Source of the DNA: Marisediminicola antarctica
GTDB lineage: Bacteria > Actinomycetota > Actinomycetes > Actinomycetales > Microbacteriaceae
Length of the DNA: 64,000 nt
Direction: 5' to 3'
NCBI RefSeq assembly: GCF_009930795.1
Contig: NZ_CP017146.1
Coordinates: 496,001-560,000, forward strand
In this document: positions 25,859 to 36,525 of the stretch, in pieces
Layout: each line of letters opens with the position of its first letter
Numbering within the stretch: position 1 is the stretch's first letter
Notes under the pieces: generated by a model
The model's input: only the letters and a program-made list of their open reading frames with translations
Databases searched by the model: none
Told to the model about the DNA's origin: nothing
Position numbers and translations under genes: made by a program

Positions 25859-28144
25859 ATGCATTCGAGAACGCGGCGAATTCGATGGGGAGCCAGCGCA
25901 GCAGCGGTCGTCCTCGTGCTGGGTTTGGTAGGGACCACGGTCGCGGCGCCCGGGGATCCCGCTTACGCCGGCACTCCGGCCGACTACGCCGAGTATCCCT
26001 ATGCCGCGACGAATTACACAGAAGATTTCCGAGGCCAGTTTCACTTCAGCCCGCAATCGGGGTGGATGAACGACATCAATGCTCCGTTGTACTACCGGGG
26101 TGTCTACCACCTCTTCTACCAGCACAACCCGCACGGTCTCGCGTGGGACGCCATGCACTGGGGACACGCGACGAGCACCGACATGCTGCACTGGATACAA
26201 AAGCCAATTGCCCTCGAGCCGGGTGTGCACCCGGGCAATCTGTGGAGCGGAGCGGGCTGGGTCGACGCCAACAACGTCACCGGGCTCAAGACTGGAACGC
26301 ACGACCCGATCCTGCTCTTCACCGGCACCGAGGGCGTCAGCATTGCGTACTCGGTCGACGGAGCAGAGACCTTCCAGAATTACAACGGCGGCACGAAAGT
26401 CATCACGATCGCAACCGAAAGCCGCGACCCGAAGGTACAGTGGGATCCGGCGACCAATCGCTGGATCATGTCGATCTTCAAGGCCGGCACAGGCGCCGTT
26501 TTCTACACCTCGACGAATCTGCTGAGCTGGACCTACCGCGGCGAGTATGCCGCGAATTGGTTCGTCGAGTGCCCCGACCTCTACCAGCTTCCCGTCGACG
26601 GCAACTCGGCCGCCACGAAGTGGGTGCTCCAGGATGCGAGCGGCGAATATGTCATCGGGTCCCTCAATGCCAACGGTGTCTTTGTCTCCGATTGGGCAGC
26701 TCCGCAACGGATGGAGTGGGGCCTGTCGAGCGCCGCATTCGCGCCATCCACCTGGTACGCGCCACTTACGTTCAACCAGCTGCCCTCCGGTCGCGTCGTG
26801 CAGCTGGGTTGGCAACCGAGCAACGCGGGCGTGACCTGGACGGGCAATGCTTCACTGCCCGTCGAGCTCGGCCTGAAAACGTATCCCGAGGGAATCCGCA
26901 TCACACGCAATCCGATCTCTGAGATCTCGACGATCCGCACCTCGACCCAGTCCTGGGGGAGTCGAACGATCACGACGAGCGCGGCATCCGACCCGCTCCT
27001 TGGGATCAACGCCGATACCTACGAACTGACGGCCGTCTTCGATGTGGCGGGAGCCACGGCAAACGAGTTCGGATTCCGGTTGCACGCACGCTCGGATGGC
27101 TCAAGCGACCGAACCGTCGCCTACAACCGCTCGGCTCAATCGCTCTATGGAATCCCGATGCCGCCCATCAACAATTCGGTGACGATGAGAATCATCGTCG
27201 ACCGTGGGCAACTCGAGATCTTCGGCAACGGCGGCAAGACGGTCGTGAGTGACAACGTCAACTTCAACTCGGCGTCCTCGAGCCAGGGCATCAAGCTCTT
27301 CGCGACGGGCGGGTCGGTGACGCTGCGCTCCCTAAGTTTTTCGCCGCTCGGATCGACGTGGGTAACGGCGGCTGGAGGAACCGGGCTCAACGGCGGAATC
27401 GTGTCGACAACCCGCCAGGACATGTGTGTTGATCGCGATGTCGCGACCGGCAAGGCGCAGATCTGGGATTGCTTGGCCAACCCGAATCAGACCTGGGCGC
27501 TCGACGGTTTCGGCGCTCTGACAACTGGAGGAGCGTGCCTGCAGACGCCAGCCGGCGTGACAGCCAACATGACGCCTGTCACGATTGCCACGTGCACCGG
27601 GAGCCCGCATCAGAAGTGGAGGCAAGGAAACTTCGGATCACTCGTCAACGAACAATCCGGCCGCTGCCTCGATATCCCGGCAGCAAACTGGACGAACGGC
27701 AACCAGCTGCAGATCTTTGATTGCGTCGGCACAGCAAACCAGAGCTGGCTCGCGCCCGCCTACACGGCGCCGGTCGGTCAGATCTCGTGGAGCACGTCAT
27801 CCAAGTGCGTTGATCGTGATGTCGCGACCGGCAAAGCCCAGATCTGGGACTGCCTCGGCAATTCGAACCAGAACTGGCGCCTCACGGTCAACGGCACCCT
27901 CGTTTCGGGCGCGACGTGCTTGCAATTGCCGTCAGGGGCGACCGCCAACGGCACTTTCGTCAGTGTCGCGGCCTGCGACGGCGGCCTCAACCAGGTGTGG
28001 AGCCGCAACTCCGACGGTTCGTTCACGAATCTCGCCTCGGGCAGATGCCTCGACTTGGATGCGGGAATCACGACCAACGGACGGCAACTGATCACCTGGA
28101 CCTGCGTCGGCGGCCCCAACCAGACCTGGGCCGGACCAGCGTAG
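25859..28144 (+). CDS. secreted GH32 fructan hydrolase with two ricin-type lectin modules
   Basis: 761-residue secreted beta-fructosidase. Signal peptide about residues 1-38. The GH32 five-bladed propeller carries WMNDIN (nucleophile Asp72), SRDPK (Asp190) and VECPD (acid/base Glu237). A beta-sandwich domain follows. The C-terminal ~240 residues hold two ricin B-type beta-trefoil modules (CBM13), from about 521 and 649, that begin with the same CVDRDVATGKAQIWDC block, showing recent duplication. The ATG is preceded by GGGAG. Substrate is inulin, levan or sucrose; GH32 sequence alone does not say which. Tail-to-tail with GH91 in the fructan island. Confidence 0.93.
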   Translation: MHSRTRRIRWGASAAAVVLVLGLVGTTVAAPGDPAYAGTPADYAEYPYAATNYTEDFRGQFHFSPQSGWMNDINAPLYYRGVYHLFYQHNPHGLAWDAMHWGHATSTDMLHWIQKPIALEPGVHPGNLWSGAGWVDANNVTGLKTGTHDPILLFTGTEGVSIAYSVDGAETFQNYNGGTKVITIATESRDPKVQWDPATNRWIMSIFKAGTGAVFYTSTNLLSWTYRGEYAANWFVECPDLYQLPVDGNSAATKWVLQDASGEYVIGSLNANGVFVSDWAAPQRMEWGLSSAAFAPSTWYAPLTFNQLPSGRVVQLGWQPSNAGVTWTGNASLPVELGLKTYPEGIRITRNPISEISTIRTSTQSWGSRTITTSAASDPLLGINADTYELTAVFDVAGATANEFGFRLHARSDGSSDRTVAYNRSAQSLYGIPMPPINNSVTMRIIVDRGQLEIFGNGGKTVVSDNVNFNSASSSQGIKLFATGGSVTLRSLSFSPLGSTWVTAAGGTGLNGGIVSTTRQDMCVDRDVATGKAQIWDCLANPNQTWALDGFGALTTGGACLQTPAGVTANMTPVTIATCTGSPHQKWRQGNFGSLVNEQSGRCLDIPAANWTNGNQLQIFDCVGTANQSWLAPAYTAPVGQISWSTSSKCVDRDVATGKAQIWDCLGNSNQNWRLTVNGTLVSGATCLQLPSGATANGTFVSVAACDGGLNQVWSRNSDGSFTNLASGRCLDLDAGITTNGRQLITWTCVGGPNQTWAGPA

Positions 28145-28166: not shown

Positions 28167-28206
28167 CCCAACCCCGCTCCACGTGCTCCTGTGGGCTGGG
28201 TTAGGG
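28167..28206. terminator. bidirectional hairpin between GH32 and GH91
   Basis: CCCAACCC...CCAC pairs with GTGG...GGGTTAGGG around GTGCTCCT. It lies between the convergent stops of the secreted GH32 (28144) and GH91 (28201), so it likely ends both transcripts. Confidence 0.6.
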
Positions 28207-29412
28207 AGTTGCGCGAAACCCGAAGGTCGCGCCGGCAAGGGGATTGAACTCCCCGTTCGTTCCGCAATCCAACACCTTTGTATTCGTCGTGCTGCCGTCG
28301 AGCACGACGGTCTTGACGGCGGCGTTTGCGATCGTGTGGTTCGTCGCGATGTAGTTGTTCGCACCCGACTTCACGAGCACGATCGTGGGGGTCGCTCCCG
28401 ACGGCGTGATGCTGGACGGGGGAACATCGAACGAGAAGTGATTCGACACGACGGTGTTGCCGGAGCCGTTGACGTGCACGAGGCCGTACAGGTCATCCCA
28501 GCCGTTTGAGACTCCGTGGAATGGCGGGAAGGATTCCCGCTGGCGCAAGAAGTGGTTCGAGGCGACGAGGTTGTTCGCACACGCCGCTTCGAGCACGATC
28601 ATTCCGGGGTAGAAGTTGTGTAGCCGGTTAGCCGTGACCGTTGAGTTTGTACACGCTTTGAGGTGCACCATGCTCTTGCCGCGCGGAAATACGTTGTTGC
28701 CCGAGATGAGCAGCCCGAAGTGGTTCTCGGCAAAGATCGAGAAACCGAGCGGGCCAGCGCCGATGAGGTTGTCGTTGACCACGCATGCCTGGCCCGATCC
28801 GACGAGCTCGATGCAACTGCCGCACTCCGCGATGAAGTTGTTCGTCACCGAGAGCGCGTCGGCGCCGGTGATGACGATCCCGCGCTGGAGGTAGACCATC
28901 CCCATTCCGGTGATGCGAAGCGAGTCGGTGTCGCTCGTCGACCGAATTCCGATTTTGCCGTTGAGGTAGCTGTTCTGGTTCGGGGTGAACGAGACGCCGT
29001 CGAGACAGAAGTCGAGGAACTCGATGGACGAGAGACGAGGGCTGCCCCCGCGATTGATGAGGAACGCCTCGGCATTGCCATCGGTGTTTTCCACGCGGAT
29101 GCGGCTGCCTCCGGGCCAGACTTCGTGCCAGGTTGCCGTGCTGCCGGCGTTGTAGCGGATGCTCGACGAGGTGAATCCGTGACCGGATCCCTTGATCTGC
29201 AGGTAGCTGATGTCGACGACGACCCGTGTCTTGAGTGAGTAGTCCCCGGGCGGGATGTAGACGACAGCTCCGGGCTTCGATGCCTGGCTTGGCTGGTTGA
29301 TCTTGATATCGGCGATGATGCTGTTGATGATCGCGCCGATGTCGGTAAAGGCGGTCGTGTCTGGGCTGCTCGGTATCGTCCAGGTCGTGACGTCGTAGAT
29401 CGTCGAGGGCAT
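28201..29412 (-). CDS. GH91 inulin fructotransferase-like enzyme, without its own signal peptide
   Basis: 403-residue right-handed beta-helix protein of GH91. Family members are inulin fructotransferases that turn inulin into difructose anhydride I or III, and some DFA-III hydrolases. Recognisable blocks are YDVTTW at the start, AVVYIPPGDYSL, LDFCLDGVSFTPNQNSY, FIAECGSCIEL, AENHFGLLISGNNVFPRGKS, YPGMIVLE and DDLYGLVHV. The ATG at 29412 has a perfect AGAAGGAGG site. This start matches the mature N-terminus of secreted Arthrobacter enzymes, so the leader is missing; a Tat leader is in a separate frame just upstream (29441-29629). Product type (DFA I or III) cannot be read from sequence. Confidence 0.92.
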   Translation of the reverse strand: MPSTIYDVTTWTIPSSPDTTAFTDIGAIINSIIADIKINQPSQASKPGAVVYIPPGDYSLKTRVVVDISYLQIKGSGHGFTSSSIRYNAGSTATWHEVWPGGSRIRVENTDGNAEAFLINRGGSPRLSSIEFLDFCLDGVSFTPNQNSYLNGKIGIRSTSDTDSLRITGMGMVYLQRGIVITGADALSVTNNFIAECGSCIELVGSGQACVVNDNLIGAGPLGFSIFAENHFGLLISGNNVFPRGKSMVHLKACTNSTVTANRLHNFYPGMIVLEAACANNLVASNHFLRQRESFPPFHGVSNGWDDLYGLVHVNGSGNTVVSNHFSFDVPPSSITPSGATPTIVLVKSGANNYIATNHTIANAAVKTVVLDGSTTNTKVLDCGTNGEFNPLAGATFGFRATP

Positions 29413-29440
29413 TGATTCCTCCTTCTGAGAATGCCGGGGC

Positions 29441-29629
29441 TCAGAGAACGCCGACGAGCGTTCGATGAGCGCGAGCCGGCGTGGCGGTGGCCGCCGCCGC
29501 GGCCGGCGGAGTCGACGGTGCGGCAACCGCCGACTCGGGGTGAGCGCCAAGTCCCGCCACCTCCGCGGCGACCACCGAACCGAGGGCGGCGCCGAGGAAG
29601 GCGCGGCGTGAGACGTTGGTGTTGCTCAT
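29441..29629 (-). CDS. 62-residue Tat signal peptide reading frame upstream of GH91
   Basis: ATG at 29629 behind AGGGAG. The product begins MSNTNVSRRAFLGAALGS, a classical twin-arginine motif (SRRAFLG), followed by a hydrophobic core, an AVAAP-like cleavage region and an Ala/Pro linker, and stops at 29441. There is no mature domain. GH91 starts 28 bases later in another frame (offset of one base), and the GH91 frame itself is open upstream across this region, so a single frameshift would join leader and enzyme. This may be a broken precursor, a programmed frameshift, or a sequencing error in the GCC/GCG-rich stretch. Confidence 0.75.
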   Translation of the reverse strand: MSNTNVSRRAFLGAALGSVVAAEVAGLGAHPESAVAAPSTPPAAAAATATPARAHRTLVGVL

Positions 29630-29802
29630 GCGTGATCTCCCTGGCCAGTGACTGCAGCGTTGGCAAAAGGATTTGGCAGCGCCGCCACGCCTCAACTTAG
29701 AGTGGACTGCTCAACCAGGTCAATAGCTGGTGGGCGGCGTGGGCTGTTTGGCAATTTTTGGCATTGACTCCTGGGCGGCAGAACACGGAAACTCATGCCA
29801 AG

Positions 29803-32999: not shown

Positions 33000-33044
33000 G
33001 TGCCCGACCCGTCTTGTTCACAACCATCAAGAGAAAGAAAAAAC

Positions 33045-34166
33045 ATGGAGTTCTGGCAACCTAACAGCCCACTTGGCGGGCTGGCGCACGTGAAGTCCGG
33101 ACGATCGAAGCGGGAGTCCAGCTGGGATCAGACCGGTGGCAACCGCGACTTCAAGATCGTGCCGCCCGGAGAGACGTTCGTGATCGCCGACATCACGGGG
33201 ACCGGTCGGATCGAGCACATCTGGCTCACGACCCGCTGCTATTCGGAGAAGTACCTGCGCAAGCTCATCATCGAGATGTACTGGGACGGCGAAGAGAACC
33301 CCAGCGTCAGAGCGCCGCTCGGCGACTTTTTCGGGGTCGGTCACGCCGTCGCGAAGCACTTCATCTCGTTGCCGCTGAACGCGATCTTCGGTCCGCGCCG
33401 GGGCCCGAAGGGTCCGTTCGCAGCGGCGATGAACTCGTACTTCCCGATGCCCTTCGGGTCGTCCGCAAAGATCCAGATCATCAACGAGAGCGACCAGCCG
33501 ATTCAGAACCTGTTCTACTACGTGGACTATGAACTGACGGATGAACCGCTGCCGGATGATGTCGGACGCTTCCATGCGTACTACCGCCAGGAGAAGCCCA
33601 CGCAGAAAGTCATCCACACCTCGGACGAGGAGGATCCCGCCCCGTGGGATCTCCCCGGAACGAACCTGACCGGTGACGACAACTACGTCATCCTCGATGC
33701 CGTGGGCAAGGGCCACTACGTCGGCTGCGTACTCAGCATCGACAACTTCGATGCGGGCAACCAGGTCTTCACCTGGCCGGGCGAGGGCGACGACATGTTC
33801 TTTATCGACGGAGAAGTCTGGCCGCCGTCGCTCCACGGAACCGGCACGGAAGACTACTTTGGCGCGGCCTGGGGATTCCCCAGCGGCGAGTATTCCGGGC
33901 CGTACCACGGGATAACGCTCGGGGCGAGCCCGCAGGAGCACTTCGGGCTCTGGAGTATGTTCCGCTGGCACATTGAGGATCCGGTACGTTTCGAGAAGAG
34001 CCTTCGCGTCTCGATCGAGCACGGGCATGCCAACGACCAGGGCAACGACTATTCGAGCGTCGCGTATTGGTATCAGGTCGATGCCCACGCGGAGCACGCA
34101 GATCTCGCACCGGTCGCCGAGCGCTTGCCTCGTCGCTGGCCCGAGCACGGGCTCTGGGACGAGTAG
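33045..34166 (+). CDS. GH172 (DUF2961) enzyme, candidate difructose anhydride hydrolase
   Basis: 373-residue cytoplasmic protein of DUF2961, now GH172. Characterised members are a difructose dianhydride I synthase/hydrolase from Bifidobacterium dentium and alpha-D-arabinofuranosidases. The conserved HGTGTEDYFG block has its Glu at residue 269; other family blocks are ITGTGRIEHIWLT, PLGDFFGVGH and SGPYHGITLG. No signal peptide; ATG at 33045 follows a weak AGAGAAAG. It lies between the importer genes and LacI/GH32/PfkB and opposite GH91, which favours difructose anhydride as substrate over arabinan. This is inference; arabinofuranosidase activity is the alternative. Confidence 0.85.
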   Translation: MEFWQPNSPLGGLAHVKSGRSKRESSWDQTGGNRDFKIVPPGETFVIADITGTGRIEHIWLTTRCYSEKYLRKLIIEMYWDGEENPSVRAPLGDFFGVGHAVAKHFISLPLNAIFGPRRGPKGPFAAAMNSYFPMPFGSSAKIQIINESDQPIQNLFYYVDYELTDEPLPDDVGRFHAYYRQEKPTQKVIHTSDEEDPAPWDLPGTNLTGDDNYVILDAVGKGHYVGCVLSIDNFDAGNQVFTWPGEGDDMFFIDGEVWPPSLHGTGTEDYFGAAWGFPSGEYSGPYHGITLGASPQEHFGLWSMFRWHIEDPVRFEKSLRVSIEHGHANDQGNDYSSVAYWYQVDAHAEHADLAPVAERLPRRWPEHGLWDE

Positions 34167-35286: not shown

Positions 35287-36525
35287 ATGCGCCCCCAGTT
35301 CCACTTCACCGCTCCGTCAGGCTGGATCAACGATCCCCACGGAATCACCTTTCGTGATGGCCAGTACCACCTCTTCTATCAATACGTTCCCGACAGTCTG
35401 AAGTGGGCGCCCAATTGCCACTGGGGGCACGCCCTCTCTCCTGACCTGTTCACGTTCGAACATCTACCCGTAGCCATCGCGCCAGGCGATGGGGATGACG
35501 GGATCTGGAGTGGATCGCTCGTCACCGACGATTCGGGCAGTGCCAGAATCTTCTACACCTCGGTCACGGAGCCTGACATAGGTAGTGGGCGTGTGCGGGT
35601 CGCGACTCCCGTTGATGAGGACTGGGTCGAGTGGAAGAAAGGCTCAGTGGTCGCCGAGGTTCCGGCTGGGCTACACACTGTCGCCTTCCGTGACCCCTTC
35701 GTCTTTCGGGACGGGTCGCACTGGCGGATGTTCGTCGGCGCTGCGCTCGAGGACGGCTCCGCCGCCGCAGCATCCTACGAATCCGAGGATCTGAGCACGT
35801 GGGCGTATGAGGGTGTTGCGGCCAGCAGGTCGACGTCTCTCGTTGACCCGGTGTGGACCGGACGCCTGTGGGAGTGCCCCCAAGTGTTCGAGATCGGTGG
35901 GCGCCACGCGTTGGTCACCTCTGTCTGGGATGCCGACACGCTTCACTACGTTGCCTACGCACTCGGCTGCTATCACGACGGAAAGTTCACGGCTGACACG
36001 TGGGGCCGGCTGAGCTATGGCGACAGCTACTACGCCCCGTCATTCTTTCGCGATCGCGACGGACTGGCCTGTCTCACCTTCTGGCTCAGGGGTGTGGGAG
36101 ACCACGCGGAGGGCTGGGAGAGCGCTCACAGCGTGCCCCATACGTTGACTCTGAGGGATGGACGGTTGGAAGCCGCGCCGCACGCAGCTCTCGAAAAGTA
36201 TCGAGGTCGCGAGGTCAGTGAAGGCGAGACCGTCGGACCTGCCATCGACTGTGACTGGCAATCAGGCGGTGAATTCGTTGTTTGCTCGGAAGGCGAGCGC
36301 GCGGCATCCGTGCAGGCAGGGGAGTCAGGCGCAGTGACGCTCCACGTCGGAGAATATAGCTGGACCATGCCACACGATTCGACGAAGGTCCGCGTCGTCG
36401 TCGACGGGCCGACGATAGAAATTTCTACAAGTCGGGGAGTTCTCGCGGCGTCGATCTCCCCGAAGTCGAACACACTCAGTTTCAGCTTCGATGGCGTTGC
36501 GACGATTTTCGAGCTCGTTCGATGA
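35287..36525 (+). CDS. cytoplasmic GH32 beta-fructosidase
   Basis: 412-residue GH32 enzyme without signal peptide. Catalytic residues are visible: WINDPHG (nucleophile Asp16), FRDPF (Asp136) and WECPQ (acid/base Glu196). It starts 12 bases after LacI and overlaps the fructokinase by four bases, so the products of import are probably cut to free fructose here. Together with GH172 it would complete difructose anhydride breakdown via inulobiose. Confidence 0.94.
   Translation: MRPQFHFTAPSGWINDPHGITFRDGQYHLFYQYVPDSLKWAPNCHWGHALSPDLFTFEHLPVAIAPGDGDDGIWSGSLVTDDSGSARIFYTSVTEPDIGSGRVRVATPVDEDWVEWKKGSVVAEVPAGLHTVAFRDPFVFRDGSHWRMFVGAALEDGSAAAASYESEDLSTWAYEGVAASRSTSLVDPVWTGRLWECPQVFEIGGRHALVTSVWDADTLHYVAYALGCYHDGKFTADTWGRLSYGDSYYAPSFFRDRDGLACLTFWLRGVGDHAEGWESAHSVPHTLTLRDGRLEAAPHAALEKYRGREVSEGETVGPAIDCDWQSGGEFVVCSEGERAASVQAGESGAVTLHVGEYSWTMPHDSTKVRVVVDGPTIEISTSRGVLAASISPKSNTLSFSFDGVATIFELVR

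Follow-up and report, generated by a model that had tools for sequence, protein, structure and literature searches.

The question raised by this locus is how an inulin fructotransferase that starts without a signal peptide could act on a polymer outside the cell, and what the small twin-arginine frame immediately upstream of it contributes. In the window, by which we mean the whole 64,000 nt stretch of Marisediminicola antarctica DNA that was analysed, both genes lie on the minus strand (Table 1). Rereading this strand reproduces exactly the coordinates given in the initial annotation for a 62-residue twin-arginine frame ending 28 bases before GH91. The leader opens with an ATG at 29629, carries SRRAFL at residues 7–12 and ends with TGA at 29443–29441, leaving a gap of exactly 28 bases to the GH91 start codon (ATG 29412; the stop codon ends at 28201). 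The two starts are 217 bases apart and the frames therefore off by one, with the GH91 frame free of stops across the leader as far back as about 29625 (an open frame of 474 aa), just as had been described. GH91 does possess the perfect Shine–Dalgarno sequence attributed to it (29426–29418); the leader also has the site of its own that had been claimed, GGGAG, which by eye is a modest one. The match of the window leader to TIGR01409 (TAT_signal_seq) is weak (E 0.019; 15.3 bits, just below the cut-off of 16.7).

The enzyme matches PF18835 (Beta helix repeat of inulin fructotransferase) at E 7.3e-26, its closest solved structures being 9j4i (E 9.9e-142) and 2inu (E 8.8e-139). It falls in the fructotransferase clade of beta-helix proteins of ~390–410 aa, outside the longer hydrolase clade. 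No signal-bearing N-terminal extension is present in the window GH91, whose start corresponds approximately to the point from which the chains of solved relatives align; the earlier remark that it begins where mature relatives begin was thus correct.

Table 1. Features of the leader–GH91 locus and its surroundings in the window (positions are those of the window).
Feature	Position	Strand	Details and basis
Detached Tat leader gene	29441..29629	(-)	62 aa plus stop, MSNTNVSRRAFL...AVA/APSTPP...HRTLVGVL, stop
Twin-arginine codons, leader residues 8-9	29603..29608	(-)	sequence; RR invariant in 16 aligned leaders
Presumed mature peptide, residues 37-62 after A-V-A	29444..29521	(-)	Pro/Ala-rich linker plus tail; cleavage presumed
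C-terminal tail HRTLVGVL, stop codon directly 3'	29444..29467	(-)	proposed GH91 docking motif, from sequence
Shine–Dalgarno AGAAGGAGG of GH91	29418..29426	(-)	sequence
GH91 inulin fructotransferase, 403 aa	28201..29412	(-)	PF18835, 9j4i, 2inu matches
LacI-type operator-like palindrome GCCAAATCCTTTTGCC upstream of leader	29662..29677	(-)	consensus match
DUF2961 protein, candidate intracellular DFA-I hydrolase	33000..34166	(+)	PF11175, E 1.2e-84; family of DFA-I synthase/hydrolase (PMC8605356, accessible part)

The initial annotation had proposed a comparison with close relatives, and there the separate leader frame recurs. Among 56 distinct GH91 loci of the fructotransferase type, a separate Tat leader ORF lies upstream of the enzyme gene in 44, the leader is fused to the enzyme in 11 (L036 and L104–L113), and one, L044, has neither; a separate leader occurs at none of the 29 longer, hydrolase-type GH91 genes with upstream sequence. 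"Distinct" here means different proteins, many of which are closely related. The loci come from a first set of relatives, from genome searches and from one plasmid record, and they cover the family codes f1, f3, f6, f9 and f21 as well as Kribbella and Myceligenerans (for g37 and g189 the names Arthrobacter and Streptomyces are our attribution). Within the first seven relatives the leader is separate in the four closest (Kribbella L001–L003 and Myceligenerans L004), and no separate leader was found at the hydrolase-type L005–L007. The scan looked for Tat-like small ORFs upstream of GH91, requiring a [KR]R box and leaving the C-terminus free; 43 of the split leaders were found by script and that of L096, beyond the 200-nt limit, was added by hand. 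The fructotransferase-type set consists of GH91 proteins of ~390–406 aa and includes L003, where GH91 continues into GH32. Partial or late-starting GH91 genes (L028, L045, L082–L084) and later copies of the same gene were left out of the counts, L029 was dropped as a cut second view of the L013 gene, and the 29 hydrolase-type genes are 30 less L107, with its 10 nt of upstream sequence. Some shorter GH91 matches, for example G1384, G1449, G1417 and G1486, lie outside the locus set.

In a quick tree the fused group and the long group each form one clade, the split group being made up of the remaining fructotransferases except L044; apart from this exception, every fructotransferase in the tree comes with a Tat leader, be it fused or detached. 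The GH91 of L044 (~36% identity) sits on a very long branch and belongs to a genome listed with 7% contamination. The best solved match of L112, a locus with a fused leader, is 2inu. It is confirmed that leader and GH91 represent a real, conserved split in which each gene has its own start. Of the three options put forward in the initial annotation, it is separate expression that agrees with the 44 two-gene loci.

Some loci show an unusual organization. In L107 (10–2700) a hydrolase-type GH91 lies directly upstream of the fused-leader fructotransferase on the same strand. The GH91 of L003 (5001–8453; Kribbella jiaozuonensis) lacks a stop codon and continues into a GH32-type protein that carries lectin-like repeats (domains assigned by eye), the signal-like sequence of the GH32-type part being kept internally in the fusion. 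On an Agrobacterium plasmid (L129, 20–2682) two tandem genes annotated as NosD domain proteins, both GH91-like by tblastn, precede a GH32 gene. A Tat box was absent from the two N-termini inspected of the Gram-negative GH91 proteins L129 and L130, and a scan of viral contigs found no GH91 relatives.

What the initial annotation did not contain is the conserved C-terminal tail of the leader, a feature that points to an independent function of this small protein. The sequence [ILV]-G-[VLM]-[LI] stands directly before the stop codon in all 43 script-found leaders (44/44 with L096). The last residue is leucine in 41/43, and the wider motif [HYR]xx[IL][ILV]G[VLM][LI] is present in 39/43, the exceptions being L010, L011, L013 and L041. 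As a control, the window and the examined loci were searched for distinct stop-ended frames of 40 aa or more. Of these 6484 frames, 45 end in [ILV]G[VLM][LI], and 43 of the 45 are GH91 leaders (42 identified from the leader list, and L096); the motif was found in 0/11 other Tat-like small ORFs obtained by the same criteria. The occurrence of the tail motif at GH91 leaders is far above chance. The N-terminal part is no less constant, with RR in 43/43 leaders (44/44 with L096) and an RR-x-hydrophobic box in 43/43. An A-x-A follows 20–32 residues past the first R in 41/43 (exceptions L010 and L100), after which 16–33 residues remain, although in this Ala-rich region A-x-A is unspecific as a sign of cleavage.

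The dN/dS ratio of the last 8 codons, compared with that of the 12 codons before them, was 0.13 vs 0.61 in 9 Kribbella leaders, 0.23 vs 0.55 in 20 Arthrobacter-type loci and 0.28 vs 0.51 in the 12-member clade of the window, in codon windows that were not indel-aligned. Over all 43 leaders the tail value (0.60) is hardly below that of the linker (0.66). The tail is under purifying selection within two well-sampled groups.

Profile searches tie the leader to GH91. A profile of 16 leaders gave, among the matches listed, one full-length small-ORF match in each of the 16 source genomes, always adjoining GH91; the matches away from GH91 listed for these genomes are partial and mostly the N-termini of larger frames. 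At E 1e-7 the profile found matches in 8/150 genomes around G705 and in 4/169 of the window's family, and all 12 full-length small-ORF matches listed at this threshold adjoin GH91. Its sensitivity is low, since at E 1e-7 it recovers 8 of the ~20 genomes known to carry the leader; the direct scan located 20 split leaders in loci of seemingly the same 150 genomes. Some of the listed matches away from GH91 are small frames, among them one of 167 aa in G715. Of two that were inspected, L124, in the window's own genome, is a shadow frame of another gene, and L073 encodes a secreted protein of the usual Tat type, complete with mature domain. On the matches listed, the view that the leader is a generic Tat ORF also present elsewhere was rejected.

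Inulin is a polymer that one would expect to find outside the cell, and the neighbourhood of the window GH91 points in the same direction. Close to it lie genes for a solute-binding protein, two permeases, DUF2961, a LacI regulator, a GH32 in which no lectin domain is predicted and a PfkB-family kinase, with a GH32 carrying ricin-type lectin domains on the opposite side. The latter (25859–28144) has an apparent N-terminal signal by eye and the former (35287–36525) is short; the two would fit the outside and inside steps of fructan use. With importer, DUF2961, GH32 and sugar kinase, the cluster encodes the rest of a difructose-anhydride-I (DFA-I) pathway, and hence GH91 should act outside. From this context, and the DUF2961 neighbour in particular, we infer DFA I as its product. 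The enzyme of one split-leader locus (L080) is near-identical to the solved 8hsn, which we take to be a Streptomyces DFA-I enzyme. The accessible part of PMC8605356 places DFA-I synthase/hydrolase in DUF2961, describes a three-stage path (synthesis outside the cell, uptake, intracellular breakdown) and cites the DFA-I GH91 of S. davawensis as extracellular. According to a 2011 review (PMC5448860), the supernatant of A. globiformis S14-3 contains its DFA-I enzyme although the gene has no signal-peptide structure, whereas fused signals of 32 and 40 residues are present in two DFA-III enzymes. A DFA-III hydrolase is reported without a signal peptide in the accessible text of PMC4640833, which fits the leader-free long clade.

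We consider it likely that leader and GH91 are the two genes of a Tat hitchhiker unit, in which the leader acts as a minimal carrier and docks on the folded GH91 via its tail. Docking, Tat export, stoichiometry, cleavage and substrate are what we infer for this unit, and events might proceed as follows. The leader would be translated as a separate protein of 50–80 aa in which a Tat signal peptide is followed by an A-x-A site for signal peptidase, a linker rich in Pro and Ala, and the tail. The tail, [ILV]G[VLM][LI]-COOH and mostly [HYR]xx[IL] before it, would bind GH91 already folded in the cytoplasm, perhaps as a trimer. The signal peptide would then bring the complex to the Tat translocase, the folded GH91 would be carried across and signal peptidase would remove the leader signal. 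Once outside, GH91 would turn inulin into difructose anhydride (DFA I in the case of the window), which the ABC transporter would take up and DUF2961, GH32 and the PfkB kinase would degrade.

The carrier seems to have no domain; its conserved tail, ending in a free C-terminus, is the obvious docking candidate. A more specific reading, to which we incline by a narrower measure, is that of a signal peptide acting in trans: the last eight residues of the leader with their free carboxylate would be a ligand dedicated to docking on a beta-helix enzyme without a cofactor, whose export would be driven by a separate and nearly domain-less peptide, possibly a portable short export handle and possibly one of many hidden actinobacterial pairs. 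We know of no cofactor of GH91. Tails vary by clade, the wider motif being missing in 4/43 leaders, so that docking would have to co-vary; clade-specific GH91 residues, such as 43, 61, 63, 87, 109–112 and 252 of the window enzyme, were considered as a possible docking patch but carry no weight here. An AlphaFold2 prediction of leader plus GH91 as a read-through monomer, with 12 rows, the stop read as W and no free C-terminus, gave a pLDDT of ~90 for most GH91 blocks and ~25–33 for leader and tail, with no docking; as set up, it is a weak test. Of two models the first had a mean pLDDT of 47 (poor throughout) and the second, just described, 75.5, and the tail was unplaced in both.

Other functions of the leader have to be weighed against this. 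It might be an independent secreted peptide, be it a signal, an inhibitor or a cofactor of GH91, with the enzyme exiting in another way. The mature tail would indeed be short and secreted, and the searches link its gene to GH91, but the fused relatives do without a separate peptide, detached and fused leaders swap on the tree, and no other export signal is apparent in the GH91 sequence (inspected without a predictor), all of which makes this reading unlikely.

Slightly less probable again is a regulatory nascent peptide whose C-terminus would arrest ribosomes at the stop codon and thereby control the translation of GH91 or its coupling to membrane targeting. SecM and TnaC are comparable arrest peptides, signal-bearing examples are known, and it is directly before the stop codon that the leader has its most conserved residues. 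The position downstream of an operator-like site also suits a regulatory ORF: a palindrome with up to 2 mismatches is found upstream of the leader in 28/43 loci, the remaining 15 being without such a site. At up to 3 mismatches it occurs in none of 40 leader–GH91 spacers (3 shorter spacers went unscored) and in none of 43 shuffled upstream stretches, the consensus having been picked from these loci by eye and the spacers being shorter than the upstream stretches compared. With a palindrome before the leader and none in the spacers, transcripts of those 28 loci probably begin with the leader gene. However, an arrest leader should keep a fixed geometry between the arrest site and the regulated start, and here the gap between the leader's stop codon and the first GH91 codon that is matched ranges from 14 to 214 nt, the stop overlapping a possible GH91 GTG start in L011 and L012. 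Moreover, the extracellular location of a signal-less enzyme would be left unexplained. Among the long spacers, that of L096 (1287–1497; ~211 nt) has CCGG-rich stretches, and spacers of 165–194 nt are found in L079, L091, L097 and L101.

It is very improbable that the leader is the decayed remnant of a once-fused signal and GH91 now cytoplasmic, a view related to the "lost leader, cytoplasmic enzyme" option of the initial annotation. The GH91 start, where the solved chains begin aligning, is compatible with such decay, but RR and the terminal motif are kept in 43/43 leaders, the tail is constrained in two groups (dN/dS 0.13 and 0.23), and both the expected place of the inulin polymer and the extracellular, signal-less DFA-I enzyme argue against it. 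Finally, a single fused protein produced by programmed frameshift or stop read-through, or masked by a sequencing error, was suggested by the one-base offset and the open GH91 frame in the window and is hardly credible as a general explanation, which we reject, as the 43 loci are spread over all three frame relations (24, 10 and 9) and the spacer runs from 14 to 214 nt, while the arrangement recurs in many genomes with Shine–Dalgarno-like sites before both starts in most of 16 loci (by eye).

Several known systems are related to the proposed carrier. TIGR02811 (formate dehydrogenase region TAT target), whose members are small proteins with a Tat signal encoded next to an enzyme, matches 9/16 leaders at E up to 1 (best 0.0031); the match is weak and probably due to the shared Tat signal, and the genomic context differs. 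NF047833 (MelC1) matches 2/16 leaders weakly (best E 0.022), presumably through the signal, and gives no match to the window leader at E up to 1. MelC1 is a larger, folded protein. The layout is like that of the Streptomyces MelC1/MelC2 tyrosinase operon, in which a Tat-signal helper gene precedes that of a signal-less extracellular enzyme; in the accessible part of PMC2758597, MelC2 is exported in complex with MelC1, which is needed for copper incorporation. In contrast to MelC1, the GH91 leader is apparently domain-less and consists only of signal, linker and tail. In PaoABC (PMC4273604) and the hydrogenase HybO/HybC (PMC10924467), signal-less subunits likewise leave with a Tat-signal-bearing partner. 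Unlike the GH91 leader, such partners are functional redox subunits. The DFA-III inulin fructotransferases of the 2inu/9j4i type belong to the same family and have a Tat-type leader, there covalently fused, and none of the fused-leader enzymes was seen to have the tail motif. A literature search on fructotransferase export, DFA-I enzymes, hitchhikers, MelC1 and trans signal peptides, covering titles and the beginnings of abstracts of mostly open-access papers, found no detached-leader GH91 arrangement among the papers listed.

A split leader could explain the DFA-I enzyme of A. globiformis S14-3, extracellular and yet encoded by a gene without a signal peptide (PMC5448860). If the proposal is true, Tat hitchhiking, which the accessible literature describes for folded partner proteins, could also be accomplished by a short-tailed signal peptide that is detached from its cargo. 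Some of the enzymes now annotated as cytoplasmic may in that case be secreted, and there may be a small export tag that works without being fused.
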